A stretch of 64,000 nt of DNA from Luteitalea sp. TBR-22 (GTDB lineage Bacteria; Acidobacteriota; Vicinamibacteria; Vicinamibacterales; Vicinamibacteraceae): assembly GCF_016865485.1 (NCBI RefSeq), contig NZ_AP024452.1, positions 5,416,501 to 5,480,500 on the forward strand. Reading direction: 5' to 3'. The notes below the pieces were generated by a model. The model ran no database searches. It was given only the letters and a program-made list of their open reading frames with translations, and was not told the origin of the DNA. The stretch's first letter is position 1. Each line of letters starts with the position of its first letter. Shown piece by piece: positions 14,374 to 34,992 of the stretch. A program made the translations under genes and the position numbers.

Positions 14374-15591
14374 TCAGGCCTGCCGCAACACCAGCGCGGA
14401 GTCGTTGCCGCCGAAGGCCAGCGACGTCGAGACGGCGCAGGGCACCGGCACCTGGCGCGGCGTGTTGGCCACCACGTCCACGGCGCAGTCGGGATCGACC
14501 CGATCGAGGTGGATCGTCGGCGGGATCACGCCGCGCGACACGGTGAGCGCGAGCGCCGCCGCCTCCATCGCGCCGGCTGCGCCGAGGCAGTGGCCGAACA
14601 TCGCCTTGAGCGAGGTGACGGGCATGGCGGGCGCGCGGTCGCCGAAGACGACATGCACGCCGCGGGCCTCGGCCTTGTCGTTCTGCGGGGTGGCGGTGCC
14701 GTGCGCGTTGACATGCGTGACGTCGGAGGCATTCACGCGGGCATCATCGAGCGCCGCGCGGATCGTCGATCCGATTGCCTGGCCTTCGGGCTCGGGCGCC
14801 GTCGGGTGATAGGCCTCGCAGGTGAAGCTGTAGCCGGCCAGTTCCGCGTAGATGCGCGCGCCCCGACGACGAGCGCGGTCCCAGTCCTCGAGCACGAGGA
14901 TGGCAGCGCCCTCGCCGATGTTCATGCCCTGGCGGCCGGCGTCGAACGGCCGGCACGGCTGCGGGTCCATGAGGCGCAGCGCGTTGAAGCCCGCGAACGT
15001 GAGGCGCGACAAGGCGTCGGTGCCGCCGGCGAGCGCCGCATCGATGCGACCGCGCCGGATGGCGTCGACGGCCTGTCCGATGGCGATCGTGCTCGACGAG
15101 CACGCTGCCATCAGGCACGATCGCACCCCCTCGAAGCCGAAATGCGCGGCGACGATGTCGACCGGCGTGCTGGAGAAATGATTGTGGATCCAGGTCGGCC
15201 GCGCGCGGTCCATGCCCTCACGACGCATCGTGAAGTAGTACGACTCGTTGCGCACGAGGTCACCGGTGCCGGCACCGAGCAACACGCCGACGCGCGCCCT
15301 GTCGATCCCGCTGTCGAGCAACCCCGCGTCCTCGACGGCCTCTTCGGCGGCGACGACGCCCATCATGTCGCTGCGCGACCAGCGGCGACGCTGGTACGGC
15401 GTGAACCGCGCCTGCACCTCGGACAGGTCCACTTCGGCCGCGATGCGGCTCCGGTAGCCATCGGTGTCGAACAGCGTGACCGGTCCGATGCCGCACTGGC
15501 CCGCCAGCATGTGCTCCCACACCGCTTCGCGCTGGGTGCCCAGCGCACAGATCATGCCGATGCCAGTGATTGCGACCCTTTTCTGGGACAT
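14374..15591 (-). CDS. Beta-ketoacyl-ACP synthase, KS-alpha type (FabF-like)
   Basis: A 405-residue condensing enzyme with an intact thiolase-fold triad: C164 in MAACSSST, H297 in VNAHGTAT and H334 in MFGHCLGAAG, with K329 before the second histidine. Length and motifs match KASII and type II polyketide KS subunits. The start was set at the ATG giving MSQKRVAITGIG, because KS proteins begin with this strand. A second ketosynthase lacking all three catalytic residues is encoded at 23724, so the two probably form a KS/chain-length-factor heterodimer. It would condense malonyl-ACP onto an aryl starter in a polyene pathway. It is divergent from the PAS kinase. A primary-metabolism FabF role cannot be excluded. 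Confidence 0.9.
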   Translation of the reverse strand: MSQKRVAITGIGMICALGTQREAVWEHMLAGQCGIGPVTLFDTDGYRSRIAAEVDLSEVQARFTPYQRRRWSRSDMMGVVAAEEAVEDAGLLDSGIDRARVGVLLGAGTGDLVRNESYYFTMRREGMDRARPTWIHNHFSSTPVDIVAAHFGFEGVRSCLMAACSSSTIAIGQAVDAIRRGRIDAALAGGTDALSRLTFAGFNALRLMDPQPCRPFDAGRQGMNIGEGAAILVLEDWDRARRRGARIYAELAGYSFTCEAYHPTAPEPEGQAIGSTIRAALDDARVNASDVTHVNAHGTATPQNDKAEARGVHVVFGDRAPAMPVTSLKAMFGHCLGAAGAMEAAALALTVSRGVIPPTIHLDRVDPDCAVDVVANTPRQVPVPCAVSTSLAFGGNDSALVLRQA

Positions 15592-15706
15592 GCCGGCCCC
15601 AGAATTCCACAAGTCCGGGCAATTGGGGCGCTGAAAAATCGTCACGCCCTGCCTTGCTCGCGCACCGGCGCCAGCCGGTCACTGTGGCGGGACGGCCCTT
15701 CCCGAA

Positions 15707-17956
15707 GTGAGGAACGCGGACGGCCGCTGCCGACGAAAGGCGGTGACCAGGGCCGGCCCAGAGAAACCGGAGCCAGCACTGCTGTATCGTACCGGTGAGA
15801 TCCGTCGTTTCGTGAAGGACAGTTTCGAGCTCATCTTCCGCCAGAGCCCCGTGCCGATGGCGATCACCCGCCGCGACGATGGGACCATCCTCGACGCCAA
15901 CGACGCGTGCTGCGTGCTCCTGGGCCTGAGCCGCGAGAAGCTGCTCGGCCGGCAGTCCATCGACCTCGGCACGTGGACGGACGCCGCGGAACGGGCCGCG
16001 GTCATGGAGAAGGTCCGGACGGAGGGCCGCGTCCGCCAGCACGAGACGCTCCTGACCAGCGGGCAGCACGTCCGCCTCTCGTTCGAACCCTTCACGCTGA
16101 GGAGCGACGTCGCCTGCCTGCTGGTCATCGTCGAGGACATCACGGCGTGGCGCAGGACCGAGGCCGAACTGCGGCAAGCCGAGGCCCGCTGGCACTATGC
16201 GCTCGAGGGCAGCGACAGCGGCGTGTGGGACTGGGACGCCACGACCAACGAGGTGTTCTTCTCCGACCGGTGGAAGTCGATGCTCGGGTTCGCGCCTGAC
16301 GAGATCGGTTCGTCGCTCGACGAGTGGTCGTCACGCGTCCACCCTGACGACATCGACGAGACGATGGCCCTCGTGGTCGCCCATGTCGAGGGACGCACGC
16401 CCGAGTACGTGTCGGAACACCGCATGCGCGCCAAGGACGGCACCTACCGCTGGATCCTCGATCGCGGCCAGGCCGTCACCCGTGACGAACGCGGCCGCGC
16501 CACGCGCGTGGTCGGCACGCACACCGACATCACGGCGCGGCGCCAGGCCGAGGAGCGTCGTCGCGACGAGGAGCGACGCTTCCGCGCCATCTTCGACAGC
16601 GCGTTCCAGTTCATCGGCCTGCTGAGCCCCGATGGGACCCTGCTCGAAGCCAACCGCACCGCGCTCGACTTCGCCGGCCTCGACGCCGCCGACGTCGTCG
16701 GCAAGCCGTTCTGGGAGGCGCGTTGGTGGCAGGTCGACGCCGCGACCACGGAGCGGCTGCGCGAGGCGGTGGCCGCCGCGGCGCGCGGCGAGTTCGTGCG
16801 CTACGAGGCCGTGGTTCGCGGTCGGGGCGGGCACCTCACGACCATCGACTTCTCGATCAAGCCGATTCGCGACGCTGGTGGACGCGTCGTGCTGCTCGTT
16901 CCCGAAGGACGGGACATCGGCGACATCCGGCGCGCGCAGGACGAACTGCACGAGAGCGAGGAGCGCTTCCGGTCGGCCTTCGAGGCAGCGGCCGTCGGTA
17001 TGGCGCTGGTGGCGCCCGACGGCCGGATGTTGAAGGTCAACCAGGCCTTCTGCGAGATGCTCGGATACGACGCCGAGGCACTGCAGGCACTGACGTTCCA
17101 GGCCATCACCCATCCCGACGACCTCGAGGCCGACCTGGCCCAGGCGGCGCGACTGGCCCGCGGCGACATCCGGAGTTACCAGCTCGAGAAACGCTACCTG
17201 CACCGCGACGGCCGCGTCATCTGGATCAGGCTGACGGGTTCGGCGGTGCGCGACACGCGGGGCAACCTGGTGCACTTCATCGCCCAGGTCGAAGACGTCA
17301 CCGATCATCGCCAGGCCCAGCAGGCGCTCGAGCGGACCCTCGCCGAGAAGGACATGCTGTTGCGCGAGGTGCACCACCGCGTGAAGAACAACCTCCAGGT
17401 GGTGTCGAGCCTGCTCAGCCTGCAGCGACGCGCCGTGCAGGACCCCGCGACCGGCGACGTGCTCGACGACAGCCGTCGGCGCGTCCTGGCCATGGCCCTG
17501 GTGCACGAACGTCTCTATCAGGGCGCCGACCTGGCCGCCATCGACATGCGCCGCTACCTGCACGAGCTGGTCCGACAGCTGTGCCAGTCGATGGCCCCGG
17601 CTGGCGTGCTCCTTCGCTCGAACGTCACGGCCGATGACCATCCGGTCCCGGTGGACGTGGCGCTGCCCTGCGGCCTCATCGTCAACGAGCTGGTCGCCAA
17701 CGTGCTCAAGTACGCGTTCGTCGGGCGCACCGCGGGCGCCCTCGACGTGAGCCTGACGCGCGACGGCGACGACACCGTGCTGACCGTGAGCGACGACGGC
17801 ATCGGCCTGCCCGTCGTGCCACGCGAGGGTTCCATCGGCATGCGGCTGGTCGAGAGCCTGGCCCGGCAGCTGCACGGCAGCTTCCAATTGCAGGCGCATG
17901 ACGGCGTGCGCGCCGTGATCAGGTTCCCGCTTCACCCGTCCGAGGCGTCAGCATGA
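15707..17956 (+). CDS. Multi-PAS sensor histidine kinase (HisKA_2 type)
   Basis: A kinase of up to 749 residues with no clear membrane segment. Four PAS/PAC modules follow one another (about 40-150, 160-285, 290-405 and 415-535). The HisKA_2 dimerisation segment contains EVHHRVKNNLQVVSSLLSL with the phospho-acceptor histidine, and an HATPase domain ends the protein (NELVANVLKYAF, DDGIGLP). The start is uncertain: GTGs at 15707, 15743 and 15812 are all in frame, and the first PAS domain needs only the last. It overlaps the response regulator by ATGA. It probably senses a cytoplasmic ligand, redox state or light. It may or may not control the polyene cluster in which it lies. Confidence 0.88.
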   Translation: MRNADGRCRRKAVTRAGPEKPEPALLYRTGEIRRFVKDSFELIFRQSPVPMAITRRDDGTILDANDACCVLLGLSREKLLGRQSIDLGTWTDAAERAAVMEKVRTEGRVRQHETLLTSGQHVRLSFEPFTLRSDVACLLVIVEDITAWRRTEAELRQAEARWHYALEGSDSGVWDWDATTNEVFFSDRWKSMLGFAPDEIGSSLDEWSSRVHPDDIDETMALVVAHVEGRTPEYVSEHRMRAKDGTYRWILDRGQAVTRDERGRATRVVGTHTDITARRQAEERRRDEERRFRAIFDSAFQFIGLLSPDGTLLEANRTALDFAGLDAADVVGKPFWEARWWQVDAATTERLREAVAAAARGEFVRYEAVVRGRGGHLTTIDFSIKPIRDAGGRVVLLVPEGRDIGDIRRAQDELHESEERFRSAFEAAAVGMALVAPDGRMLKVNQAFCEMLGYDAEALQALTFQAITHPDDLEADLAQAARLARGDIRSYQLEKRYLHRDGRVIWIRLTGSAVRDTRGNLVHFIAQVEDVTDHRQAQQALERTLAEKDMLLREVHHRVKNNLQVVSSLLSLQRRAVQDPATGDVLDDSRRRVLAMALVHERLYQGADLAAIDMRRYLHELVRQLCQSMAPAGVLLRSNVTADDHPVPVDVALPCGLIVNELVANVLKYAFVGRTAGALDVSLTRDGDDTVLTVSDDGIGLPVVPREGSIGMRLVESLARQLHGSFQLQAHDGVRAVIRFPLHPSEASA

Positions 17957-18573
17957 CCCCCGCGTCAGCGCGCATCCTGATCGTCGAGGACGAACAGATC
18001 ATCGCCCTCGACCTGAGCGACACGCTGGCCGATCTCGGTCACGTCGTCGTCGGCGTCGCCGGACGCGGTGAGGAAGCGGTGACCATGGCCCGGTCGCTGT
18101 CTCCGGACCTCGTCCTGATGGACATACATCTCTCCGGTGACATGGACGGCGTGACGGCGGCCGAGACGATCCGCCGCGGCGGTGGAGCGCCCGTGGTGTT
18201 CATCACCGCGTACGACGACGCGCCGATGGTGCAGCGCGCCAAGCTGAGCGAGCCGTACGGCTACCTGCTCAAGCCGTTCAACGTGCGCGAACTGCGCGTG
18301 ATCATCGAGATGGCGCTTTTCCACCACCGGATGCAGACCGAGCGCGAGGCGCTGACCAGGCAGTTGCGGGAGGCGCTCCAGGAAGTCACGCAGCTGAAGG
18401 CCTTGCTCCACATGTGTGCGTACTGCCGGCGTGTCGCCGACGACAACGGCAACTGGGAGAGATTCGAGTCGTTCCTGCAGCGGCGGACGGGCGCGCAGGT
18501 ATCGCACGGCATGTGCCCGGAGTGCTACGCGCGCGTCAAGGCGAGTGGACTCGGGGAACCGGAGAAGCGCTGA
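17953..18573 (+). CDS. Response regulator with zinc-ribbon-like C-terminal extension
   Basis: A 206-residue regulator. The receiver domain (1-125) has E12-D13, the phospho-acceptor D57 in VLMDIHLSG, T85 and K107 in LLKPF. A coiled-coil linker (about 126-150) leads to a short cysteine domain: C155-x2-C158, then the conserved stretch ADDNGNWERFESFL and a second CPEC pair near 190-193. This C-terminal module recurs in response regulators paired with PAS kinases, where it probably binds zinc. There is no DNA-binding domain, so output is likely through protein contacts. Translation is coupled to the kinase by a 4-nt overlap. Confidence 0.9.
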   Translation: MTPASARILIVEDEQIIALDLSDTLADLGHVVVGVAGRGEEAVTMARSLSPDLVLMDIHLSGDMDGVTAAETIRRGGGAPVVFITAYDDAPMVQRAKLSEPYGYLLKPFNVRELRVIIEMALFHHRMQTEREALTRQLREALQEVTQLKALLHMCAYCRRVADDNGNWERFESFLQRRTGAQVSHGMCPECYARVKASGLGEPEKR

Positions 18574-18641: not shown

Positions 18642-21596
18642 TCAGTTCAACGGCTTCAGCAGCATCACCTGCACGGTCGTCGAGCCGAGCCCCCGGTACC
18701 GATCGGGCAGGAAGCTGTGCCCCACCTCGCCGCGGATGAAGGCGACCTTGCCAGGCACGCGAACGTTGAAGGCGACGCCGACGCCGGTCAGCGGCTCCCA
18801 CGGGATGGCGCTCACGCCGGGCACGCCACCGGGCCGGGTGCGGCCCCAGGCCTGGTCGACGAAGAAATCCATCCGGTACTGGTCGAGCAGGTTGAAGGAG
18901 TACTGCCCTCGCGCCATCGCGAGCTCGCCGTAGCGCACGCCCGCCGACGGCACGCCGTGGATCCGGGTGTCGTCGAACAGCCCGAACTGGTACTGGCTGA
19001 ACCGATCGAGCTGGTCGCCGCCGAAGTACGCGCCGTTGACGATGATCTTGCTGAACGGGCCGAGGTAGAACGCCTTGGTGGCCACCGCCTGGTACTTCGC
19101 ATACGCGGCCGGCGTCGCGGTGAGCGCCGTGGGATCGCCCCAGGGCCGCCACGACGCGCGCCGCGCCCACGTGCCGTTGGCGGTCAGCGAATAGCCGCTG
19201 CGCCGGTACTCGTACAGCAGCCCGACGCCGTTGGTCACCGTGCTGGTCGGCGTGACGAAGTCCTCGGCGGTCGTGGTGTTGCGCACGTAGCCGTCGAAGC
19301 GGAACAGGTACTGTCCGGAGATCCGCTGGTACGTGGTCGCCTGCCAGCCGAGGTTCAGGCCGGTGGACAGCGGCCACGTGAGCAGGCTCTGATCCTCGCG
19401 CTCGCCTGCAGGTCCGAACAACCGATCCGTCGACGGCGGGGCAATCGCGAAGAAGTCGAGCGAGGCATCGACCTTCCCCCACAGCGCCTTCGGCCGCTGG
19501 ATGTTGCCGGCGGCGAGCACCCCCGCGAACAGTACCGCCACCTGCGTGTCCTGCCGGCCGCGGAAGCGGAAATTCAGGTAGTTGATGCCACCAATCGGCA
19601 GCGGATAGCCGAAGCCGGGGTCGATGGTCACGCCGAGCGCGAGGGCCTTGGCTCGTGTCGTGGCGACATCGGATACCACGCGGCGATCGCCCTCCTTGAC
19701 GAAGTAGCGCACACCCGCGTCCGTGTCCCGATACATCGTCCGCGCCCCGCCACGTGCTTCCTGCCGCTGCGCCGCGAAGTCGCCCGGCGCGATGGCGTAG
19801 TCGGAGAACGTGATGCGCCGCTCGACGAGCAGGTTGCGGCCGGCGATGAGGATCAACTGCTGGTTGTACATCCGCGCCGGTAGCCACACCTCGCGGCCGT
19901 CCGACGCGCGGACCGGTGCGAAGTCCTGCACCTCGTCGTTGGAGATCACCGGCGCCGACAGCGCCGTCTGCGCGGCCTGCTGGCGGACGCGCGCGTAGGT
20001 CGTCTTGTCGATCCACACGGTGCCGCGATACAGCGACTGGTCCTTGCGCTCCGGCTCGAACACCACGACCCACGTGTCGCGTCCCGCGATCGCCTCGGAA
20101 CCCTGCAACCGGTAGCGGTACCGCGCGTCGAGCTCGATCTGCAACGGCGGCGTGAGGACCTTCTCGGCCTGCAGCAGCGGGAACGGCGGCCGCGGCTCGC
20201 CGAACTTCGCGCCGTTGACGCTGAACTCGCGCTCCTCCCACTCGGTGCCCTCGACGCGATCGACGAAGAACCGGTTGACGGTGATCACGTCGTAGCCCGG
20301 GTCGGTGACCGTGGGCCGGAAGTACTGCTGGATCCGGCCGTTCATCACGTACCGGGGCGACGCGTCGCGCTCGAGCGCCTGGCGCGCCTGGTGCCGCGCG
20401 AGGATCTCCTCCACCGTGGGCAGGCGGGCGCCGGTCACTTCCTCCTGCGCGATGAAACCGGCCTCGGCCCCGCGGTTGAAGTCCACCACCCACGGGCCCT
20501 GCCCCGGCAGCACCACCGTGGCCTCCGTCCGCTGCCGCGCGTCGTCGCGCGTCACGCGCAAGGCCGGGCGATCCCGACCGGTCAGCGGGTCCCGCACCAC
20601 CACGGTGCCCGCCGACGGGAGCACGAGGGAGAGATCGAGCCGCTCCTCCGATGGGCCGAGGCCGTCGACCACCAGGTACGTCCCGAGCGTCGACAGGTTG
20701 TAGAGCAGGCGCCAGCGGCGCGAGCCCGTCACGTCCACGTCGTTGGCCGAGATGCGCAGCGTGTCGGGCGTGGTGCTGACTGTCGCGAGGTCGGAAGGGT
20801 CGAGATCGCGCAGGCGGCCGGCCACCGGGAGAACCGCCCGAAGCGCCTGTGCCGAGAGCACGTAGCCGCGCGCCGCGATGGGCGCGCCCGCCGACGACAC
20901 CTCGAGTTCCGCGAAGCGCGCCGCGCCAGCGCGCGCGCTGGCTGCCGCCGGGGCGTCGACGACGGCGAAAGTGCCCTGGACCAGGCTCGCGCCCGGGTCG
21001 CGATCGGCAATCCAGCGCGTGGTCGACTCCACGTCGCCACCCGCGTCAATCGCGTACGCATCGAGCGAGGGCGCCACGTCAGGGGTGACGAGCGCGTCGC
21101 GCGCGGCGCTCGTCGATGCCGGCCCCCCGAGCACGATCGGGATGCCGGCGTCGCGGGCACGAATCTCGGCAGCCGCGAGCTTCACCAGAAACGCGCCTGT
21201 TCGTACGCCAGGGGAGGAAGACGCCCTCACATCTCCCAACACCAGTTCGACGGCCGCAAGGGCCGGCGCCGCAGCCACCACGTCGCGGATCCACTGCGGC
21301 CACGCTGCGGCGTCGATGCTGCCGGGCTCCGGGACGACGACCGACAGCCACACCGGCCACCCGCGCGAAGCCGCGACGCGGCCAGCCGCATCAGGCGCCA
21401 GCGCGGGTACGACGATGCGGCGCGCCGCGCGCAGTCCCTCCGGGGGTGATGGCAGGGTCGGCCAGGCGGGCTCGTCGGCCGGGAGCAGTTCGAAGAAGAG
21501 CCGTGGGGGCCTCGGCTGAGAGGGCTGCGCGCCCGCCCACGGAGCCGCCAGGCATGTGGCGAGCACCGCGAAGACGGCGCTCAGTCGGCCAGCCAT
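18642..21596 (-). CDS. Large exported outer-membrane protein of the polyene region
   Basis: A 984-residue protein with a signal peptide (about 1-23, ending AGAQP). Residues 30-400 form an alpha/beta region with no family I can name with confidence. Residues about 440-690 are beta-rich and resemble LolA/LolB-like lipoprotein-carrier folds (WVVVFEPERKDQSLY and TVWIDKTTYARV). From about 690 to the C-terminus the sequence alternates aromatic and small residues as in a transmembrane beta-barrel. The ATG lies 16 bp inside the end of the deacetylase gene, so it belongs to the KS-beta, KR, ACP and deacetylase operon. It may receive or anchor the polyene lipid at the outer membrane, but this is inferred from context only. 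Confidence 0.7.
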   Translation of the reverse strand: MAGRLSAVFAVLATCLAAPWAGAQPSQPRPPRLFFELLPADEPAWPTLPSPPEGLRAARRIVVPALAPDAAGRVAASRGWPVWLSVVVPEPGSIDAAAWPQWIRDVVAAAPALAAVELVLGDVRASSSPGVRTGAFLVKLAAAEIRARDAGIPIVLGGPASTSAARDALVTPDVAPSLDAYAIDAGGDVESTTRWIADRDPGASLVQGTFAVVDAPAAASARAGAARFAELEVSSAGAPIAARGYVLSAQALRAVLPVAGRLRDLDPSDLATVSTTPDTLRISANDVDVTGSRRWRLLYNLSTLGTYLVVDGLGPSEERLDLSLVLPSAGTVVVRDPLTGRDRPALRVTRDDARQRTEATVVLPGQGPWVVDFNRGAEAGFIAQEEVTGARLPTVEEILARHQARQALERDASPRYVMNGRIQQYFRPTVTDPGYDVITVNRFFVDRVEGTEWEEREFSVNGAKFGEPRPPFPLLQAEKVLTPPLQIELDARYRYRLQGSEAIAGRDTWVVVFEPERKDQSLYRGTVWIDKTTYARVRQQAAQTALSAPVISNDEVQDFAPVRASDGREVWLPARMYNQQLILIAGRNLLVERRITFSDYAIAPGDFAAQRQEARGGARTMYRDTDAGVRYFVKEGDRRVVSDVATTRAKALALGVTIDPGFGYPLPIGGINYLNFRFRGRQDTQVAVLFAGVLAAGNIQRPKALWGKVDASLDFFAIAPPSTDRLFGPAGEREDQSLLTWPLSTGLNLGWQATTYQRISGQYLFRFDGYVRNTTTAEDFVTPTSTVTNGVGLLYEYRRSGYSLTANGTWARRASWRPWGDPTALTATPAAYAKYQAVATKAFYLGPFSKIIVNGAYFGGDQLDRFSQYQFGLFDDTRIHGVPSAGVRYGELAMARGQYSFNLLDQYRMDFFVDQAWGRTRPGGVPGVSAIPWEPLTGVGVAFNVRVPGKVAFIRGEVGHSFLPDRYRGLGSTTVQVMLLKPLN

Positions 21597-22425: not shown

Positions 22426-22683
22426 CTAGGCGGTCTTGCGCTGCGCCTCGATGTACTCGGCGATGGCGTCCACCGACTGCAGCACCTTGCCGCCGGTCTC
22501 CTCGTCGCCGATCACCACGCCGAACGAGCGCTCGATCTCGAGGACCAGCTCGAGGGCATCGATCGAGTCGAGCCCGAGGCCGGCGCCGAACAAGGGGGCG
22601 GCGCTGTCGATCTCGTCAGGCGAGATGGGCAGCTTGAGGGCACGCACGATGGCGGCCTTGATGTCGGAACGCAAGTCAGTCAT
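22426..22683 (-). CDS. Acyl carrier protein
   Basis: An 85-residue ACP with the phosphopantetheine site S40 in LGLDSIDALEL. The four-helix pattern is complete, and the C-terminal segment VDAIAEYIEAQ is typical. Seven bases separate it from the ketoreductase and five from the deacetylase gene, so it is part of one operon with KS-beta. It would carry the growing polyene or aryl acyl chain. Confidence 0.93.
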   Translation of the reverse strand: MTDLRSDIKAAIVRALKLPISPDEIDSAAPLFGAGLGLDSIDALELVLEIERSFGVVIGDEETGGKVLQSVDAIAEYIEAQRKTA

Positions 22684-25693: not shown

Positions 25694-28153
25694 GTGACTC
25701 GTTTCGTCCAGGCGCTCATGACGTGGGCGCGTGCCCGGCGCGGCCTCGTGCTCGCGCTCGCGGCCGTCCTCGCACTCGCCAGCCTCGTGCCGACGCTGCG
25801 CATCCGCTTCGGCACCGACGTGCTGCAGCTGATGCCACGGGAATCGGGCGCCGTGGACGCCTTCGAGACGTACCTCGAGCGGTTCGGCAGCCTCGACGCG
25901 CTGTACGTGTTCGTCGAGGCGCCTCCCGACGGCGTCGTCGCCGACTACGCCGAGTACGTCGACGCCCTGGTCGATGCGCTCCGCGAGCTGCCGGAGGTGC
26001 GGCGGGTCGATGCGGGGCGCCTCGACGGCTCACGGGACTGGGCCTGGCTGACCGACCGGCAGTTGTTGTTGCTCGATCCGGCCAACTATGCCGAAGCGGT
26101 GGCGCGCATGGCGCCGGAGCGCGTGCCCGCGCAACTGGCCCGCACGCGCGACATGCTCGCGCTCCCCTCGGAAGACCTCAAGGCACTCGCCCAGCGCGAT
26201 CCGCTCGGCTGGCTCGAGCTCACCACGGCGCGCCTCGACGGTGCCTCGGGCGTGCTGCGCCTCGCGCCGCCGGGCAACGAGGGGTACGTGACGACCGACG
26301 GGCGCGCGCAACTGCTCGTCGTGCACCCGGTGCAGCCGCCGTTCGACACGACCTTCGCCCGCGCGCTGCTCGACCACGTCCGCCAGGCCGAACGGCGCGT
26401 GCGCGATCGGTTCACGACGCAGTGGAAGGACGACGACCTGCCCCCGCCGCGGATGGACATCGCGGGTGGACATCGGACGGCGATCGAGACCGAGACGCTG
26501 ATGCGCGGCGAGGCCATCAGCAACGCCGCGTGGTCGATGGTGGGCGTGCTCGCGCTGCTGTACCTGTCGTTCCGCAATGCCTGGCTCGTGATCTTCGGCA
26601 CCCTGCCGATCCTGCTCGGCACCCTGGTGACGCTCGCCCTGCACCAGGTCGCCGGCGTGCAGTTGTCGGCCGCGGCGACCGGGGCCACCGCGATGCTGTT
26701 CGGCCTGGGCGACGACGGCCTGGTGCTGCTGTTCGTTGCGTATCGCGAGGGGCTGGCCCGCGGCCTGACGCCCCTCGAGGCGGTCGGTGAACTCGGCGGC
26801 ATCGGGATGAGCATCGTGCTCGGCGAGGTCACCACGGCGGCGACGTTCCTGGGGCTCTGGTTCGTCACCTTTCCGAGCCTGCAGCAACTCGGCGTCGTCG
26901 TGGGCCTCGGCATCCTGCTGACCGGCCTGTTCACGCTCACCGTTCTGGTGGCCGGCCTGCCGGGCCGCGCGTGGGTGGAACGCTCGCGAGACCTGACGCT
27001 GCCCGGCCTCGGTCCGTGGGTGACGCGGCATCGCGTCGCCATCCTGGCGACCGCCGCCCTGATCACGCTGCCGCTCGCGTGGGGCCTGCCCGGGCTGCGC
27101 GTCGATCCACGTATCGAGCGGCTGCGCCCGGTGACCGAAGGCCTGGCCCTCGAGACCGAGATCACGTCACGATTCGGGCTCGCTGCCGACATGTACCTCG
27201 TGCTGGGTCGGGGTCCGACCCTCGAACCGCTCCTGGCGGCGCACGAGGCCCTCGAACGCTCGCTGGCCGACGTCGACGGCCTGGCCCATGCCGGTCCGTC
27301 CGTACTGCTCCCCTCGGCGCAGGTGCAGGAGGCACGCCGGCGCGAGCTCGCCTCGCTGGCGCCGCGGCGCGCCACCGTCGCCGACGCGGTCGATGCGGCC
27401 GCCGACGACCTGGGGTTCGTGCCGGGCACGTTCGCGCCGTTCCGGGCCCGGCTGGACCGCGTGCTCGATCCGACCCAGGCCTTGACGCTCGGGGAGCTGG
27501 AGGCGCACGGCCTCGGCGACCTCGCGGGGCGCTTCATCCGGCGTGACGGGGCGGAGTACCTGGTGGCCACGTATGCGACTGCCGACAATCCGGCAGCCGT
27601 GGAAGCGCTGCGTGCGCGCGTCGCAGCGCAGCCCGGCCTGATCCTCACGGGGCTGCCGCTGGTCAACGCCGCCCTTGCGGCGCGGTTGCCGCGGGAACTG
27701 AGCATCGGGCTCGGCGTCGGCGCGCTGGTGGTGGTGCTGCTCATCTGGCTCGAGTTCCGGGCAGTCCGGCCGACCGCGCTCGCGCTGTTGCCCACCATCT
27801 GCGGCATCATCTGGGGACTGGGGGCGCTGGGATGGGCGGGCGTCGTGCTCGACCTGTTCAGCGTGTTCGCCATCCTGATGTTCCTCGGCATCGGCGTGGA
27901 CTACGGCATCCATCTGCTGCACCCGACACTCGGTCCCGAAGGCCTCGACGTGTCGCGTGCGCTGTCGCTCGTCGGTCCGGCGTTGCTGCTGGCAGGGGCG
28001 ACGACGATCGTCGGCTTCGGGACGCTCGTGTGGTCGTCGTACGGTCCGCTGCACTCGCTGGGGCTCGTCTCGGTGGCGACGATCGGCGCGGCGCTGGTCG
28101 CGTCGCTGCTCGTGCTGCCGGCGCTGGTCGGCGGCAGGGAGTCGTCGCGATGA
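25694..28153 (+). CDS. MMPL/RND-family lipid exporter
   Basis: An 819-residue transporter with the duplicated RND architecture. There is a single helix at 15-36, a periplasmic loop, then five helices (about 275-425) containing GLGDDGLVLLFVAY. The second half repeats this, with a helix at about 440-462, a loop, and five helices (about 670-815) containing FLGIGVDYGIHL. MMPL proteins move hydrophobic products such as glycolipids, hopanoids or aryl polyene lipids out of the inner membrane. The GTG start follows the LolA-like gene by 28 bp, and the stop overlaps the glycosyltransferase ATG (ATGA). Confidence 0.9.
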   Translation: MTRFVQALMTWARARRGLVLALAAVLALASLVPTLRIRFGTDVLQLMPRESGAVDAFETYLERFGSLDALYVFVEAPPDGVVADYAEYVDALVDALRELPEVRRVDAGRLDGSRDWAWLTDRQLLLLDPANYAEAVARMAPERVPAQLARTRDMLALPSEDLKALAQRDPLGWLELTTARLDGASGVLRLAPPGNEGYVTTDGRAQLLVVHPVQPPFDTTFARALLDHVRQAERRVRDRFTTQWKDDDLPPPRMDIAGGHRTAIETETLMRGEAISNAAWSMVGVLALLYLSFRNAWLVIFGTLPILLGTLVTLALHQVAGVQLSAAATGATAMLFGLGDDGLVLLFVAYREGLARGLTPLEAVGELGGIGMSIVLGEVTTAATFLGLWFVTFPSLQQLGVVVGLGILLTGLFTLTVLVAGLPGRAWVERSRDLTLPGLGPWVTRHRVAILATAALITLPLAWGLPGLRVDPRIERLRPVTEGLALETEITSRFGLAADMYLVLGRGPTLEPLLAAHEALERSLADVDGLAHAGPSVLLPSAQVQEARRRELASLAPRRATVADAVDAAADDLGFVPGTFAPFRARLDRVLDPTQALTLGELEAHGLGDLAGRFIRRDGAEYLVATYATADNPAAVEALRARVAAQPGLILTGLPLVNAALAARLPRELSIGLGVGALVVVLLIWLEFRAVRPTALALLPTICGIIWGLGALGWAGVVLDLFSVFAILMFLGIGVDYGIHLLHPTLGPEGLDVSRALSLVGPALLLAGATTIVGFGTLVWSSYGPLHSLGLVSVATIGAALVASLLVLPALVGGRESSR

Positions 28154-28836
28154 AGGTCTGGGCGCTCGTGCCGGCCTTCAACGAGGCGGCCACCATCGGC
28201 CGGGTGGTCGTCGGCGCCGCGGCCAACGTCGACCGTGTGCTGGTGGTCGACGACGGCTCCACCGACGGGACCGCCGAGGCGGCGGCCGCCGCCGGCGCCG
28301 AGGTGATGCGGCTCGAACGCAACGGCGGCAAGGGCACGGCGATCCGTGCCGGGCTGTCGCGGGTGTTCCAGGGCGACGCCACGCACGTGCTCTTCATGGA
28401 CGGCGACCTGCAGCATCGACCGCAGGAGATCCCGGCCCTGCTGGCCGAGGCGGCGGGCTCGGGGGCGGCGATGGTCATCGGCGAGCGCGTGTTCGTGCGC
28501 GAGGAGATGCCCGCGTCGCGTTACTGGGCCAACGTGATCGGCAGCTGGATGCTGGCGACGCTGATGGGCGTGGACCTCACGGACACCCAGTCGGGCTTCC
28601 GGGTGGTCCGCACCGACGTGCTCCGCCAGGTCCCGCTGGAGGCGACCGGCTACGAGTTCGAGACCGAGTTGGTGGTGAAGCTGGCACGCCGCGGCGCGCA
28701 CATCGCGCGCGTGCCGATCAAGGCCGTGTACGCCGGCGAGGCGAGCAAGATCCGTCCGGTGCGAGACACGACCCGCAACATCGTGCTGGCCCTGGTGTAC
28801 CGGTTCCTGCGCCGCGGCGGGAGGTCGGACAGATGA
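28150..28836 (+). CDS. Family 2 glycosyltransferase
   Basis: A 228-residue GT-A enzyme of the polyprenyl-phosphate sugar transferase type. It starts with ALVPAFNEAATIGRVV, has the nucleotide-binding VVDDGSTDGT and the metal-binding DGDLQHRP (DxD region), followed by TDTQSGFRVVR. It has no membrane helix and probably acts at the inner face of the membrane. ATGA overlaps on both sides couple it to the MMPL exporter and the acyltransferase. In this cluster it may attach a sugar to the polyene lipid or its carrier. Confidence 0.9.
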   Translation: MKVWALVPAFNEAATIGRVVVGAAANVDRVLVVDDGSTDGTAEAAAAAGAEVMRLERNGGKGTAIRAGLSRVFQGDATHVLFMDGDLQHRPQEIPALLAEAAGSGAAMVIGERVFVREEMPASRYWANVIGSWMLATLMGVDLTDTQSGFRVVRTDVLRQVPLEATGYEFETELVVKLARRGAHIARVPIKAVYAGEASKIRPVRDTTRNIVLALVYRFLRRGGRSDR

Positions 28837-29867
28837 GCACGCAGCAGCAACCGGTCCGGTGGGTCAGCCACCGCCTCAACGGCACGCTGATCGTCGGCGG
28901 CAGCTATCTCGGATCGCGGTACGTGCCGCTGCCGTTGTCGTGGCCGGTGGCGCACGCGGGGGCGTGGCTGGTGAGCCACCTGATGCCGAGCGTGCGGGAC
29001 GCGCTGGTGCACAACCTGCGCGCCGTGTTCCCGCACGAGACCGACGCGCAGCTCCGTCGCCGCGCCTACCGCACCTGCCACACGTACACCGACGACTGGA
29101 TGGACTTCATGCGGTCGCTGTCGTGGTCGCGCGAGAAGGTGCTCGAGCGCTTCTCCTACGAGCGTGCCGACCGCCTGCAGGACGCACTGGCGCTCGGCCG
29201 CGGCGCCATCCTGGTGACGGGCCACTTCGGCAACTGGGAGGCGGGCGCCGTGCTGATGAAGGCGCTGCAGGTGCCGCTCACCGTGGTCGCCATGCCGGAG
29301 CCCGATCCCAACGTGAACCGCATCCGCCATCAGGTGCGCACGGAGCTCGACGCCGACACCATCGAGGTGCGCCAGTCACTGGACACCCCGCTGCAGATCC
29401 GTCGCCGGTTGGCCGAGGGGCGCGCCGTGGCCATGCTGATGGATCGGCACGTCGAGCGCGACAGGGTGCCGGTGACGATGTTCGGGCGACGTACGCATTT
29501 CATGGGCGCGCCAGCGATGCTGGCGTACCTGACGGGTGCCCCGCTGGTGCCGATCTTCCTGGTGCGCGAGGGGCGGGGCCGGTTCCGCGCGCGCCCGCAG
29601 GAGCCGATCCTGCTGGACCGGACCGGCAACCGCGACGAGCAGGTGCAGCGCGCCGCGCAGCGCGTCGCGACGCTGCTCGAGCGCGAGATCGCGGCGCGTC
29701 CGGACTGCTGGTACCAGTTCTATCGGTACTGGGAGGAGCCGGGGATCGCGGATCGCGGATCGCGGACCGGACAGGACGCGGCGTGTGGCGCGGACGGTTC
29801 ACCGGGCGTCGGAACGGGCGCGCTGGCGGCATCGCTGCCGGTCCGCATCGACGAGGACCCGCGCTAG
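28833..29867 (+). CDS. LpxL/HtrB-like lysophospholipid acyltransferase
   Basis: A 344-residue acyltransferase of the lipid A biosynthesis family. The catalytic HxxxxE motif is present in TGHFGNWEAGA. LMDRHVERDRVPV and TGAPLVPIFLVREG are further family segments. Similar enzymes in aryl polyene clusters esterify the pigment to a glycerol or sugar lipid. The start overlaps the glycosyltransferase stop (ATGA). The C-terminal tail after about residue 300 contains a translated heptad repeat (nt 29743-29770) and is probably disordered and not conserved. Confidence 0.88.
   Translation: MSTQQQPVRWVSHRLNGTLIVGGSYLGSRYVPLPLSWPVAHAGAWLVSHLMPSVRDALVHNLRAVFPHETDAQLRRRAYRTCHTYTDDWMDFMRSLSWSREKVLERFSYERADRLQDALALGRGAILVTGHFGNWEAGAVLMKALQVPLTVVAMPEPDPNVNRIRHQVRTELDADTIEVRQSLDTPLQIRRRLAEGRAVAMLMDRHVERDRVPVTMFGRRTHFMGAPAMLAYLTGAPLVPIFLVREGRGRFRARPQEPILLDRTGNRDEQVQRAAQRVATLLEREIAARPDCWYQFYRYWEEPGIADRGSRTGQDAACGADGSPGVGTGALAASLPVRIDEDPR
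29743..29770. repeat. Heptad repeat inside the acyltransferase coding sequence
   Basis: Three copies of ggatcgc and one ggaccgg stand in perfect 7-nt register. They encode part of the low-complexity tail (about residues 304-313) of the LpxL-like protein. Confidence 0.8.
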
Positions 29868-30917
29868 GTGGATCCGGTCTCGCACCTGCTGCTGGCCCGG
29901 ATGGTCGCCGCGCTGCGGCCCGCACGTGCCCTGCCGCGTGGCGTGGTCGCCGCCACCGTCCTGGGTGGCCTGGCTCCCGACGTCGACGCCGCGTTGATGG
30001 CCGTCGGCTGGGACGTCTACCTCCGCTGGCACGAGCTGGGCACCCACTCGCTCGCCGGCAGCCCACTGGTGGCACTGCTGACGGCCGGCGTGGTGAGGAC
30101 ATGGGCGCCGCAGGCGTCACTCGGCGCCCTGGCATTCGGCGCCTGGCTCGGCGTCCTCAGTCATGTGTTCTTCGATGTCTACTCGGGCGCCGGCATCCGC
30201 CTGTTGTGGCCCCTGTCGGAACGGGTGATGACCGCACCGGTGGTGGCGATGGCCGACCCGCTCGCGATCGCGGTGCTCGTCGTCGGCGCCGTCGCGCTGT
30301 GGGTGTGGCCTCGCGTGCCGCGCACCGCGGCGACGCTCGTGCTGGTCCTGCTGGCGCTGCTGAGTGGCGTGAAGCTGGTGACGCGGGCGCGGGCCACGGC
30401 AGCCTACGAGGCGGCGGCCGCCAGCGCCGGCCCGGCACCGACGCGGGTGGCGGTGGAAGCCGTGTGGGGGTCCTGGCGCGCGTGGTCGTTCGTCGACCGG
30501 CTCGCCGACGGCACGCTGCGCGCGTGGCAGGCCGACGGCGTGGTCCCCGGCGCGCGCCTGCGCTTCAGCCAGCCACCGGCGACCGACGCGCCGTTTGCCC
30601 GCGCCTCGCTCGCCGACTTCGCCACGGCGCGCAACTTCGTGCCCGTGCACCCCTTCGCGTTCGCGACGGTCCGCGACGACGACGCGGGGCACGTGGTGTT
30701 CTGGTCCGATGCGCGCTTCTGCTGGACGCCCTCCGAGCAGGCCGACGCGCAGGACGACGTGCCGCACCAGGACGTCAGGCCTGCACGGGGCCCGCTGCGT
30801 TGCGCGCTGTGGTTCGGCGGCTCCTACGATGCGCAGGGCCGCCCATACGAGGCCCTCATCTGGCTCGGCGGACACCTGCAGCGGCGATCCCCGCAGCGCT
30901 GGGGGATTGGGTTATGA
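29868..30917 (+). CDS. YdjM-type membrane-bound metal-dependent hydrolase
   Basis: A 349-residue protein with a GTG start directly after the stop of the acyltransferase gene. The N-terminal half shows the YdjM/DUF457 motifs DPVSHLLLARM, GGLAPDVDA, HELGTHSLAGSP and LSHVFFDVYSGAGIRLLWP, with histidines and aspartates expected to bind metal. There are about four membrane helices. The C-terminal 170 residues form a soluble domain containing VHPFAFATVRDD and GHVVFWSDARFCW. Family members hydrolyse or modify lipid substrates, but few are characterised. It ends the exporter operon and is convergent with the methyltransferase. Confidence 0.82.
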   Translation: MDPVSHLLLARMVAALRPARALPRGVVAATVLGGLAPDVDAALMAVGWDVYLRWHELGTHSLAGSPLVALLTAGVVRTWAPQASLGALAFGAWLGVLSHVFFDVYSGAGIRLLWPLSERVMTAPVVAMADPLAIAVLVVGAVALWVWPRVPRTAATLVLVLLALLSGVKLVTRARATAAYEAAAASAGPAPTRVAVEAVWGSWRAWSFVDRLADGTLRAWQADGVVPGARLRFSQPPATDAPFARASLADFATARNFVPVHPFAFATVRDDDAGHVVFWSDARFCWTPSEQADAQDDVPHQDVRPARGPLRCALWFGGSYDAQGRPYEALIWLGGHLQRRSPQRWGIGL

Positions 30918-30928
30918 CGAGGCGTGCG

Positions 30929-32095
30929 TCACCTGCGTTCGCGCACCCCGGCCGTGATCAGCACGTTGGCGAAGGGCGTCCCGGATCCCATCGGCTCGAC
31001 GTGTGGGACGAAGCCTTCCTCGTGCAGCACGCGACGCCAGTCCGCTGACGTTCGGAACAGGAAGCGCTGTCGCCAGCTCCCGGTGACCAGCGCCTTGAGG
31101 CGGTTGCCCAGGCGCACCATCCGGTAGCGCCAGCCGGCAGATGCGTCGGCCTCGCGAACGAGCACGCGCCCGGTGGGCCCCAGCGCGGCGTGCACGGCGC
31201 GCAGCAGGGCGCGCTGGCCGTCGTCGGGCAGCATGTGGAGCACGTCGAACAGCAGCACCACGTCGGCCCCGGGCAGGCCGGCCTCACGAGCGTCGGCGCT
31301 GACGACCTCGGCTTCGTGTTCGAGCGCGCGGGCCGCGATGCGCGCGATGCGGGGCCGCAACTCGACGCCGACGAGCCGGTCGAACTGTGGAGGATCGGGC
31401 CGCGACGTGTCCCAGGCCCCCTCGCGAGCGGTCTGCTGCGCCTCGGCCACCAGCGCCAGGGTGAGCCCCTGGCCGCAACCGATGTCGAGCAGCGTGCCGG
31501 TGGCGGCCGGGAACGCAATCGACAGCGCCGCCGCGTAGACCGGATCGCCCGAGAGCTTGCCCCTGGCGAACTCCCAGGCGGTGATGCCGGAGTCGAGATA
31601 GCGGTCGCTCGCCCGTCGTACGAGCAACTGGAAGAACGGATCGGTGGCCGGCCGGCGCGCCGCCCATGTCACGATCCCGCCCGCCAGGCCCACGATCACT
31701 CCGACGACCACGCTGCCGACCACAAGGTCGGCGCCGAACGCCCAGATGCGGTCGGCCGAGAGCATGTCCCACGACAGGGACAGGAAATGGCCCCGCCTGA
31801 CGAGGGCGCCGGCCTGCACCTCGGCGTAGAACAGCGGCGGGACGATCAGGGGGTTGATGACATTGGCCGCCAGATACATCTTCAGCCGGTTGAGGCGAAG
31901 CATCCTGCCCAGCAGCCAGCAGAGGCCGAAGTGCACGCCCCAGAACGGCGTGCAGCCGATCATGAGCCCGAGCCCGATCGCGAGGGACTCGCGACCGCGG
32001 GTGTCGCCCTCGGTCCTGAGCGCGTGGATGGCGCGCTGCAGGCGGGTGGCGCGTGACAGCGCGCGGGCGCTGCCAGCCAACGGAGCCGTGGTCAT
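30929..32095 (-). CDS. DUF2062 membrane domain fused to SAM methyltransferase
   Basis: A 388-residue fusion. Residues about 15-165 match DUF2062 (GLGLMIGCTPFWGVHFGL, AANVINPLIVPP, with two or three membrane helices). Residues 170-388 are a class I SAM methyltransferase with motif I LLDIGCGQG at 202-210 and FDVLHMLPDDGQRALLRAV further on. The membrane part would keep the enzyme next to a lipid substrate. Aryl polyene pathways include an O-methyltransferase for the aryl head, so this is the natural candidate. A CATAAT box lies 8 nt before the ATG with no Shine-Dalgarno sequence. Confidence 0.87.
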   Translation of the reverse strand: MTTAPLAGSARALSRATRLQRAIHALRTEGDTRGRESLAIGLGLMIGCTPFWGVHFGLCWLLGRMLRLNRLKMYLAANVINPLIVPPLFYAEVQAGALVRRGHFLSLSWDMLSADRIWAFGADLVVGSVVVGVIVGLAGGIVTWAARRPATDPFFQLLVRRASDRYLDSGITAWEFARGKLSGDPVYAAALSIAFPAATGTLLDIGCGQGLTLALVAEAQQTAREGAWDTSRPDPPQFDRLVGVELRPRIARIAARALEHEAEVVSADAREAGLPGADVVLLFDVLHMLPDDGQRALLRAVHAALGPTGRVLVREADASAGWRYRMVRLGNRLKALVTGSWRQRFLFRTSADWRRVLHEEGFVPHVEPMGSGTPFANVLITAGVRERR

Positions 32096-32102
32096 CTTCG
32101 GG

Positions 32103-32108: not shown

Positions 32109-32152
32109 GGCGGTTCGTCCCGCGCAGACGGATGCGGGGTCGCCGTGCAGTG

Positions 32153-33067
32153 ATGCCCAAGTCGACGGTTTCTTCCCTCCTCACGGTCGCTCCGCTCGCC
32201 CCGTTCCCGCCGCCCTGGGTCGACACCCTGCTGGGACCCGCGCCGGTCATCTCGCGTACCGAGACCGCCCACGGCACGGTCGTGGTGCGCACGGGTCCGC
32301 GGTTCACGCACGTCTCGGTGACCATCCCGCACGCGCACGTGCTTGCCCCCGATGTGCTGGCCGCCGACGTCCGCGACGCGTACCTGTCGGTCGCCACGAC
32401 ACTCAACGCCCAGCAACGCCACCCCGTGCGCTTCTGGAACTTCGTGCCGCACATCCACACGCCGTCGGGCGAGGGGCTGGATCGGTACATGGTGTTCAAC
32501 GGCGGCCGCTTCGCTGCCTGCGAGCACTGGCACGGCTCGCCCAACGACTTCGATCACACGCTGGCCGCCGCCTCGGGCGTGGGCGTGCTCGGCGAGGCGC
32601 TGGCCATCCATTGCCTGGCCGCCGACGCGCCAGGGTCGCCGGTCGAGAACCCCCGTCAGGTGCCCGCCTACAAGTACTCGCGCCGCTACGGGCCGCGCCC
32701 GCCCTGCTTCGCGCGCGCGACCCAGCTGCCGCACCCCATCGGAGAGGCCTGGTGGCTGCTGGTGGCGGGCACGGCGAGCATCAGGGGCGAGCAGACGGTG
32801 CACGTCGGCGACGTCGCGGCGCAGACCGTGGAGACCCTCGACAACCTCGACGCGCTGCTCGCCGCAGCCGAGACCCGCCACGGCACCGATGGCGCGCAGG
32901 CCCGGTTCACCAGCCTGCGGGTGTACCTCGTCGGTCGCGAGGACGTGGGGGTCGTGCGCGCGCTCGTCGCGGCGCGCTATGGCGAGTGCGTCGACATCGA
33001 GTACGCGCAGGCCGAGTTGTGCCGCGCCGACCTCCTCGTGGAAATCGAGGGGGTCGCCGAGCTCTAG
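32153..33067 (+). CDS. Chorismatase (FkbO/Hyg5/XanB2 family)
   Basis: A 304-residue enzyme. The family stretches are plain: RFWNFVPHIH at 93-102, LDRYMVFNGGRF near 109-120, the ASGVG segment at 140-144, then SPVENPRQVPAYKYSRRYGP at 162-181 and PPCFARAT just after. The C-terminal CRADLLVEIEG contains the glutamates (E297, E299) among which the catalytic acid should lie. These enzymes remove pyruvate from chorismate to give 3-hydroxybenzoate, 4-hydroxybenzoate or dihydroxycyclohexadienoate. XanB2 supplies hydroxybenzoate for xanthomonadin, so this gene points to an aryl starter unit. ATGs at 32132 and 32153 are in frame. The stop overlaps that of the convergent dehydratase. Confidence 0.9.
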   Translation: MPKSTVSSLLTVAPLAPFPPPWVDTLLGPAPVISRTETAHGTVVVRTGPRFTHVSVTIPHAHVLAPDVLAADVRDAYLSVATTLNAQQRHPVRFWNFVPHIHTPSGEGLDRYMVFNGGRFAACEHWHGSPNDFDHTLAAASGVGVLGEALAIHCLAADAPGSPVENPRQVPAYKYSRRYGPRPPCFARATQLPHPIGEAWWLLVAGTASIRGEQTVHVGDVAAQTVETLDNLDALLAAAETRHGTDGAQARFTSLRVYLVGREDVGVVRALVAARYGECVDIEYAQAELCRADLLVEIEGVAEL

Positions 33068-33510
33068 GCCCCTGCCGCCGGTGCGCGGCCCGGTACGTCG
33101 GCCAGCGTCAGCGCACCACGCGCCACGATCGTGCCGTCGGCGGTCACGGTGCCTTCGATCTTGAACAGCCCGCCCATCCGGCCCGCGACCCTGGCGGTGG
33201 CTTCCAGCGTCACGCCGGCGCCGCACCCCGCCGGGAAGCGGAAACCGTCGACGGCCGCCACGCGCAGGGCGCGAGGCTGGTGCGGCTCGCCAGGACGCGG
33301 CGTGCCTGCGGCAAGGCCACCCGTCTGCGCCAGCAACTCGATCAGGACCACCGCCGGCACCACCGGCTGTCCCGGGAAATGCCCCTGGAAGAAGAAGTCG
33401 TCGGCGCGCGTGACACGCCGGGCGACCGCCTGCTGGCCGGGGTCGACCGAGACGACCTCCTCGACCAGGCGCATCGGCGGCGTGTGAGGCAGCAGCGAGA
33501 GGTAATCCAC
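33064..33510 (-). CDS. FabZ-like 3-hydroxyacyl-ACP dehydratase
   Basis: A 148-residue hot-dog-fold protein. The active-site region reads FFFQGHFPGQPVVPAVVLIE, with the histidine in GHFPG and the glutamate in LIELLAQTGG as in FabZ/ApeI-type dehydratases. It would dehydrate the beta-hydroxy intermediate and create each double bond of the polyene. It overlaps the chorismatase stop by 4 bp and starts only 24 bp from the divergent ligase gene. Confidence 0.88.
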   Translation of the reverse strand: MDYLSLLPHTPPMRLVEEVVSVDPGQQAVARRVTRADDFFFQGHFPGQPVVPAVVLIELLAQTGGLAAGTPRPGEPHQPRALRVAAVDGFRFPAGCGAGVTLEATARVAGRMGGLFKIEGTVTADGTIVARGALTLADVPGRAPAAGA

Positions 33511-33534
33511 GGCATATCATCGCCCAGGCGCGCC

Positions 33535-34992
33535 ATGACCCGTTCCTCCCCCATTGCCGAGGCCTTCGACCGCGTCGCGCGCGATCGTGCCGACGACGTC
33601 CTCGTCATGGCACCCGGGGAGGGACGCACGCTCACGGCCCGGGCGCTCGATGCCGACGCCCGCGCCCTCGCCGCGGCACTCACGGCCTGTGGACTGGTGC
33701 GCGGCCACCTCGTGATCAGCAGCGTCGGCAACGTCGCCGCGATGCCCGCCCTCGTGCTCGCCTGCCTGCGCGAGGGCTGGCCGTTGATGCCCGTGGACCG
33801 CAGCGCGCCACCCGCCGAACTCACCGCACTCGCGGCGCGATGGGAGGCCGCCGCGGTGGTGGTGCACGAGGGCATCGATCTGCGGAGCAGTGGGTCGGTC
33901 AGCGTGGCGATGCCGCTGCCAGGTGCGCTCATCGCCTGGACGCCACCGACGCCGCCCGAGGCCGGTCGTCACGCGCCGGCGGCGTTGCTCAAGCTGACGT
34001 CTGGAAGCACCGGCGAGCCGCGCGCCACGTGCACCGAAGAACGCCACCTGATCGCCGACGTGCGGCACATCGCCGACGCCATGGCGATCGGGCCCCGCTC
34101 GGCGCAGCTGGGCGTGATCCCCCTCTCCCATTCGTACGGATTCAGCAACCTGGTGATGCCCCTGTTGTGGCAGGGATCGCCGGTGCTGCTCCGGCCGCAG
34201 TTCGTGCCGACGCAGGTTGCAGGCGACGTCGTGGCCGGGGCGCTCGAGACGTTCGCCGGTGTGCCGTTCATGTTCGAGCACCTGGCGCGCCACCAGGCGC
34301 TGCCGCCGCTGCCGACACTGCGACTGGTGGTGTCGGCCGGCGCGCGCCTGCCATTCGAGACCGTCGCGGCCTTTCACACGGCCACGAGGCTGAAGGTGCG
34401 GTCCTTCTACGGGTCGAGCGAGACCGGCGGCATCTGCTTCGACGACAGCGAGGCGCTGGACCCGCGCGTGCCGGTGGGACGCCCGATGGGCAGCAGCCGG
34501 GTCAGACTGGTGCCCGACGCCGACGCCCCCGAGGGCGCCGGCCGGGTCGAGGTGAGCGGGCCGAACGTGATCGACAGGTACGCTGGCGCGCACGACGGCC
34601 CGGCCTTCGAGGGCGTGTACCTGACCGGCGATTACGCGCGCCGCGATGCCGACGGCGCGTACACGCTGGCCGGACGCGTCGCCACGTTCGTCAACGTCGC
34701 GGGCCGCAAGGTGCACCCGCACGAGGTCGAGGCGGCCCTCCGGGCGCTGCCGGGGGTGAACGATGCGGTCGCGCTGGGCGTCGACGACCCGCTGCGCGGG
34801 CAGGCGCTCGGCGTGCTCGTCGCCAGCGACGCCGCCTGGGACGCGCGCACCATCCGCGAGGCCCTCGCGCCGCACCTCGCGCCCTACAAGCTGCCGCGCG
34901 TGGTGGTGGTGACGCGTGCGCTGCCACTCACCGACCGCGGCAAGGTCGACCGCGCGCGCGTCGCGCGCGTGCTTGCCGACGCGCGTCGCTAG
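33535..34992 (+). CDS. AMP-dependent acyl/aryl-ACP ligase
   Basis: A 485-residue member of the ANL superfamily. The phosphate-binding loop reads LKLTSGSTGEPRA near residue 155, followed by IPLSHSYGFSNL, YGSSETGGICF, YLTGDYARRD and the C-terminal lysine motif in LTDRGKVDRARV. No carrier-protein domain is attached. In aryl polyene systems the homologous ligase activates hydroxybenzoate or a cinnamate and loads it on an ACP, which fits the neighbouring chorismatase. The start is the ATG giving MTRSSPIAEAFDRVA; upstream sequence belongs to the divergent dehydratase. Confidence 0.88.
   Translation: MTRSSPIAEAFDRVARDRADDVLVMAPGEGRTLTARALDADARALAAALTACGLVRGHLVISSVGNVAAMPALVLACLREGWPLMPVDRSAPPAELTALAARWEAAAVVVHEGIDLRSSGSVSVAMPLPGALIAWTPPTPPEAGRHAPAALLKLTSGSTGEPRATCTEERHLIADVRHIADAMAIGPRSAQLGVIPLSHSYGFSNLVMPLLWQGSPVLLRPQFVPTQVAGDVVAGALETFAGVPFMFEHLARHQALPPLPTLRLVVSAGARLPFETVAAFHTATRLKVRSFYGSSETGGICFDDSEALDPRVPVGRPMGSSRVRLVPDADAPEGAGRVEVSGPNVIDRYAGAHDGPAFEGVYLTGDYARRDADGAYTLAGRVATFVNVAGRKVHPHEVEAALRALPGVNDAVALGVDDPLRGQALGVLVASDAAWDARTIREALAPHLAPYKLPRVVVVTRALPLTDRGKVDRARVARVLADARR

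Follow-up and report, generated by a model that had tools for sequence, protein, structure and literature searches.

Here we describe a block of genes (positions 14374-34992) from a Luteitalea-like acidobacterium, which in all likelihood is a biosynthetic cluster for an aryl polyene lipid of the xanthomonadin/arcuflavin type. The predicted product is, very probably, a yellow pigment lipid built on hydroxybenzoate made by a chorismatase, of the same kind as xanthomonadin of Xanthomonas. Judged by its genes, the cluster would represent a new form of a known pigment family. An aryl polyene primed with hydroxybenzoate was already proposed for this acidobacterium in a first-pass annotation, and it remains the best reading, with ketosynthase/chain-length factor (KS/CLF) phylogeny, synteny and chorismatase residues in agreement. 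With acidobacterial clusters, full-length and truncated CLFs can be compared in a natural setting within the same chemistry, and starter exchange can be tested among close relatives; for this soil group, the polyene is also a candidate pigment other than a carotenoid.

Sequences and searches

The window, i.e. the whole analysed stretch of 64,000 nucleotides, covers positions 5,416,501-5,480,500 of a single-contig genome of 6,468,984 bases. Genes were called by codon usage, families were assigned by Pfam and NCBIfam, and the window genes were compared with other loci by tblastn. A chorismatase profile search of contigs from 84,980 species gave at least 543 relatives, and the neighbourhoods of 80 of these were read. 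CLF orthologues were accepted above 300 bits, the background FabF scores being below 200. The KS/CLF tree comprised 47 rows and was built by a quick search, with SH-aLRT as the sole support measure and without bootstrap.

Gene content

The genes considered in this study are as follows.

164-1750, + strand: flavin-dependent halogenase, probable outlying member (Trp_halogenase Pfam match), outside the coordinates annotated earlier
14374-15591, - strand: KS1, active ketosynthase with Cys-His-His, ApeO clade (Pfam/NCBIfam, tree; start set by homology)
15812-18573, + strand: PAS histidine kinase and response regulator, an insertion probably outside the pathway (Pfam; absent at this site in relatives)
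18642-21596, - strand: outer-membrane protein (OMP), 984 aa (Pfam; start backed by orthologues)
21581-22420, - strand: polysaccharide deacetylase, NodB/DUF3473 type (Pfam; linked to chorismatase clusters elsewhere)
22426-22683, - strand: acyl carrier protein, ACP (Pfam/NCBIfam)
22691-23443, - strand: ketoreductase, KR, FabG/FlxB-like (Pfam/NCBIfam)
23724-24971, - strand: CLF of full-length KS fold, Cys replaced by Ala, both His lost (Pfam, alignment, tree)
24970-25665, + strand: LolA-like lipid carrier (Pfam)
25718-28153, + strand: MMPL/HAE3-type RND exporter (Pfam/NCBIfam)
28150-28836, + strand: GT2, polyprenyl-phosphate-sugar-synthase-like, matching the N-half of ApeJ (Pfam/NCBIfam)
28833-29867, + strand: LpxL/HtrB-like acyltransferase with HX4E motif, matching the C-half of ApeJ (NCBIfam)
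29868-30917, + strand: YdjM-like membrane protein, conserved within the genus and its sister genus (Pfam)
30929-32095, - strand: SAM methyltransferase with a fused DUF2062 membrane domain, probably methylating the head group (Pfam)
32150-33067, + strand: chorismatase, Hyg5-like (FkbO/Hyg5; Pfam/NCBIfam, residues)
33064-33510, - strand: FabZ/ApeP-like hot-dog dehydratase (Pfam/NCBIfam)
33535-34992, + strand: AMP-forming aryl:ACP ligase, ApeH-like (NCBIfam)

All gene classes of the first-pass annotation were found by Pfam/NCBIfam where it had placed them. That inventory was right, but it had missed the halogenase and had not recognised that the real oddity of the cluster is a CLF of full length; the arrangement in three divergently read blocks, also claimed there, does not hold, because the + and - blocks switch more than three times. 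Among the cluster genes, Pfam and NCBIfam detected a KR and a dehydratase and no enoyl reductase. Aryl ligase and ACP are both present, the action of the ligase on 3-hydroxybenzoate (3-HBA) being predicted, and the export set of GT2, LpxL-like acyltransferase, LolA and MMPL is complete. Neither an ApeR-like priming KS nor an ApeK thioesterase was found.

Open reading frames 28859-31048 and 33517-35244 were rejected as shadow frames lacking Pfam matches. A carotenoid was considered as a competing pigment, and the squalene/phytoene-synthase-family genes of the genome turned out to be only HpnC/HpnD, so there is no ordinary phytoene synthase as a rival pigment source. At 55730-58474, 20 kb from the cluster, the window encodes a protein of 914 aa in which AMP-binding, ACP and acyltransferase domains are combined.

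Proposed route

The data show the gene identities, the synteny, the KS/CLF phylogeny and catalytic residues that are intact wherever they were inspected. Substrates, step order, amino-sugar anchor, halogenation and function are all predicted here by analogy with characterised families. The chorismatase would convert chorismate to 3-hydroxybenzoate, which the ligase would adenylate and load onto the ACP. KS1, paired with the catalytically dead full-length CLF, would add malonyl units, and each of them would be reduced by the KR and dehydrated by the FabZ-like enzyme; with no enoyl reductase encoded in the cluster, the expected outcome is an all-conjugated aryl polyene acyl-ACP. The methyltransferase, and probably also the halogenase, would modify the head, while GT2, deacetylase and LpxL-like acyltransferase would attach the polyene acyl chain to a lipid containing an amino sugar. 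Finally, MMPL, LolA and the OMP with its LolA-like domain and barrel would bring the polyene lipid to the outer membrane, where it may act as a yellow pigment protecting from light and oxidation.

Conservation across genomes

The cluster is syntenic in three more genomes of the genus and two of the sister genus, and partly across the order. The same gene order was found in G125, G362 and sister-genus G373 (tblastn against the chorismatase loci), as well as in G408 and G421, and in several genomes it is kept at 40-95% identity. The order KS1-OMP-deacetylase-ACP-(KR)-CLF followed by LolA-MMPL-GT2-acyltransferase is retained in several families of the order. It is this repeated conserved order which argues that the block is more than a chance assembly. 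Farther in the phylum, at least 8 other genomes carry a chorismatase with several of KS, CLF, KR, GT2, ligase, MMPL, acyltransferase and deacetylase. Many of the 80 loci read (out of at least 543 relatives) share cluster neighbours, and they come mostly from Proteobacteria, Nitrospirae and Acidobacteria; among the matches listed, chorismatase-linked sets of KS, KR, GT2, MMPL, ligase and deacetylase recur in these three phyla and in others.

The first-pass annotation had named the PAS kinase system, the deacetylase and the OMP as lying inside an unusual arrangement. The kinase/response-regulator pair is missing between KS1 and the OMP gene in the related genomes read, and only the window genome has it there. 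With the site empty in relatives, a role as dedicated regulator was rejected, and the PAS-HisKA_2 kinase with its response regulator (15812-18573) is a lineage-specific insertion, probably outside the pathway. The deacetylase is an expected part, known as arcN in Azoarcus. In G125, extra 5 kb between the YdjM and methyltransferase genes appear, by eye, to encode an OMP of the TonB type and a member of the enolase family, which were not counted as pathway genes.

The KS/CLF pair

KS1 retains intact ACSSS, NAHGTA and GHCLG motifs. In the tree it clusters with KSs of other acidobacterial clusters (SH-aLRT 83), and a wider clade joins this group with E. coli ApeO and proteobacterial chorismatase-linked KSs (SH-aLRT 99), leaving the FabF of the same genome and that of E. 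coli outside. The CLF (415 aa), encoded approximately 8 kb from KS1, has Ala in place of Cys and lacks both His residues. Other acidobacterial CLFs which were read share these changes, the Cys position varying somewhat; G373 has Cys there, in a changed context. In the PDB, the KS/CLF-like pair 9s5h (chains B and C) is the best match of KS1 and the second best of the CLF, and its chain C groups with acidobacterial CLFs in the tree.

A truncated CLF-like partner (~240-280 aa) adjoining the KS was looked for and not found in the cluster, the partner being full-length. The short type is represented by E. coli ApeC (240 aa) and by partners in proteobacterial and Nitrospirae loci, which ApeC-type proteins match; in the xanthomonadin-like system, the truncated ORF16 (275 residues) stands in for the CLF (PMC3691225). 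The window cluster is thus regarded as a variant working like the xanthomonadin/arcuflavin type that falls, in the strict sense, outside the type with truncated CLF; the full-length CLF marks a variant, not a product class. One acidobacterial chorismatase locus (L053), unlike other acidobacterial loci, has a short ApeC-type CLF along with a halogenase of the window's class, so the split between full-length and short forms is not absolute.

Starter supply

The first-pass annotation had pointed to an FkbO/Hyg5-type chorismatase in a cluster with no ammonia-lyase, and both observations were borne out. Residues 74-302 of the chorismatase align best with Hyg5 (5AG3, E 1.8e-38), and its NCBIfam score of 177 is below the curated cut-off of 325. 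At Hyg5 positions 173/240/327/334 it has Gly/Gly/Cys/Glu, the Glu being catalytic, as compared with Gly, Ala, Ala and Glu in FkbO. It thereby carries the complete residue set of the CH-II (Hyg5-type) chorismatases, which make 3-HBA and are characterised by Gly/Gly/Cys (PMC7170507). Position 173 is Ala in 81 of 113 sequences, including most of the proteobacterial loci sampled, and also in the sister-genus G373, which leaves the product specificity of the window enzyme as a prediction only. Alignment alone is no predictor of the chorismatase product (PMC3949708).

An ammonia-lyase starter was rejected, as the sole Lyase_aromatic gene of the genome scores as histidine ammonia-lyase (HutH). The gene is above the NF006871 cut-off and just under that of TIGR01225, and it adjoins a formiminotransferase-like gene. 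For FlxA, the tyrosine ammonia-lyase supplying the flexirubin starter, the score was 269 against a cut-off of 700.

Of 149 genomes from the order, ~18 have a CLF orthologue, and one further match is partial. The chorismatase profile, applied to 19 genomes, gave a full-length match in 7 and a match restricted to the C-terminal domain in 3, and 8 CLF genomes, our own included, have chorismatase. In G446, G402, G418 and G412, a gene for a B12-binding radical-SAM protein is located between LolA and MMPL; such genes of sister clusters lie at L205:11420-13168, L206:7613-9073, L207:12039-13529 and L208:15341-17233. Nine genomes contain the B12-radical-SAM gene, and only G421 among them also has chorismatase. 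Relatedness and incomplete genomes confound this pattern, which makes it only a lead. Close sister clusters lacking chorismatase indicate that starter supply and polyene need not be linked. Tentatively, it is conceivable, if somewhat doubtful, that Acidobacteriota have their own lineage of aryl polyene synthases, with a canonical full-length KS-CLF pair where other aryl polyene pathways have a truncated CLF, hand-over of the lipid to the LolA-barrel OMP, and a starter or tailoring module (chorismatase or B12-radical-SAM enzyme) swapped between close relatives, so that a range of new polyene lipids, halogenated or modified in other ways, would result. G229 (L203, L204; called 100% complete) has CLF, KS1 and OMP orthologues and neither the chorismatase nor the B12-radical-SAM gene.

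Predicted anchor and export

By NCBIfam, the GT2 is similar to synthases of polyprenyl-phosphate sugars, PpgS among them; taken together with the deacetylase (NodB-type) and the LpxL-like acyltransferase, it suggests that the polyene may be anchored on an amino-sugar lipid. The Xenorhabdus aryl polyene lipid contains a galactosamine-phosphate-glycerol unit. Its structure has been solved (PMC8253772).

The length of 984 residues reported earlier for the OMP is backed by the start in orthologues. This protein consists of a signal peptide, a weakly PslG-like N-terminus, a LolA/RseB-like middle part and a putative barrel at the C-terminus; LolA_like matches were obtained in 18 of 19 family members. 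Across the order its gene has KS1 on one side and the deacetylase or ACP gene on the other, and its role in the pathway is a prediction by analogy. The idea that the family is restricted to aryl polyenes was rejected, since the phylum commonly has distant homologues with no such cluster genes nearby. Of 247 genomes from the phylum, 98 encode members of this large OMP family with a LolA-like domain (E <= 0.001), which has no close PDB relative.

Alternative readings

Since KS, KR, FabZ, LpxL-like and LolA families also serve ordinary lipid metabolism, the block might belong to a specialised fatty-acid or membrane-lipid pathway making no aryl polyene, with the chorismatase and ligase as chance neighbours. 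We regard this as extremely improbable: KS1 falls in the ApeO clade and has a dedicated dead CLF, the chorismatase linkage is repeated across phyla, and the primary fatty-acid genes form a separate locus, plsX-fabD-fabG-acpP-fabF, elsewhere in the genome, where there are also further FabF-like genes (neighbours identified by eye). Assignment of the KS genes to ordinary fatty-acid metabolism, by which the first-pass annotation was to be refuted, was accordingly not found. Hardly more probable is a flexirubin- or arcuflavin-like polyene esterified to dialkylresorcinol (DAR) instead of a glycolipid. The KR is close to FlxB and the LolA to the LolA2 of flexirubin clusters, and arcuflavin is itself a xanthomonadin-DAR hybrid (PMC3949708); against this, DAR condensing and cyclase genes are absent among the scanned genes of the window, to which this search was confined, and the GT2, deacetylase and LpxL-like genes indicate a sugar lipid.

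An aryl polyene might also be made with the chorismatase not being the starter source, so that 3-HBA would be a diffusible signal or belong to another pathway, and the ligase would take another aryl or acyl acid. 3-HBA is indeed a diffusible factor in Xanthomonas as well (PMC3949708), and clusters with CLF orthologues and no full-length chorismatase exist in the same order (G446, G402, G418, G412 and others), that of G446 keeping ligase and dehydratase. This option is nevertheless unlikely, as both the genus and its sister genus have the chorismatase gene placed among those for methyltransferase, dehydratase and ligase, several phyla show linkage of chorismatase and aryl polyene genes (among the matches listed), and the Azoarcus ligase ArcT takes 3-HBA in vitro (PMC3949708).

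Comparison with known systems

The arcuflavin (arc) genes of Azoarcus sp. BH72 share with the window cluster the chorismatase (arcB), ligase, ACP, KS, KR, dehydratase, methyltransferase and deacetylase (arcN), as well as glycosyltransferase, acyltransferases, LolA, exporter, outer-membrane protein, histidine kinase and, if the outlying gene is counted as a probable member, halogenase (PMC3949708), so a deacetylase or a histidine kinase is not odd here. Two arc insertion mutants lose pigment (PMC3949708). The arc system, by contrast, is spread over two loci, has a KS partner (arcJ) consisting of the N-terminal part only and includes DAR genes; in the window there is one main locus, the CLF is full-length, and the OMP is of another kind, combining a LolA-like part with a putative barrel. 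Xanthomonadin and the Lysobacter xanthomonadin-like system share stand-alone type II PKS enzymes, GT2 and a hydroxybenzoate head made by a chorismatase, the head being predicted for the window, and the Xanthomonas cluster also has a halogenase (PMC3949708, PMC3691225). The ape clusters of E. coli CFT073 and Xenorhabdus share ApeO-clade KS, ApeE-like ACP, ApeQ KR, ApeH ligase, ApeJ, ApeL and ApeM. ApeJ, with glycosyltransferase and acyltransferase in one protein, is split into two genes in the window, in which homologues of ApeB, ApeK and ApeN were not detected and there is no separate ApeR. The E. coli ape cluster contains no chorismatase, and its starter is given as 4-HBA (PMC8253772).

Halogenase

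The halogenase at 164-1750 has the motifs WTWLIP, corresponding to the halogenase motif WxWxIP (PMC10696468, PMC5945002), and FTDPFYSPG, and it matches the PDB halogenases CmlS, PltA and RadH. A 55%-identical halogenase gene directly adjoins KS1 in the related cluster of G397, homologues at 43-45% identity are located 4-6 kb from chorismatase in four proteobacterial loci, and in G125 and G408 the halogenase gene lies ~5-6 kb from KS1. Its membership in the cluster is therefore probable, and the polyene lipid is possibly halogenated, by analogy with these families. In the window, the distance from KS1 is 12.6 kb, with unrelated genes between, and gltB-like sequence was recognised by eye beyond the halogenase.
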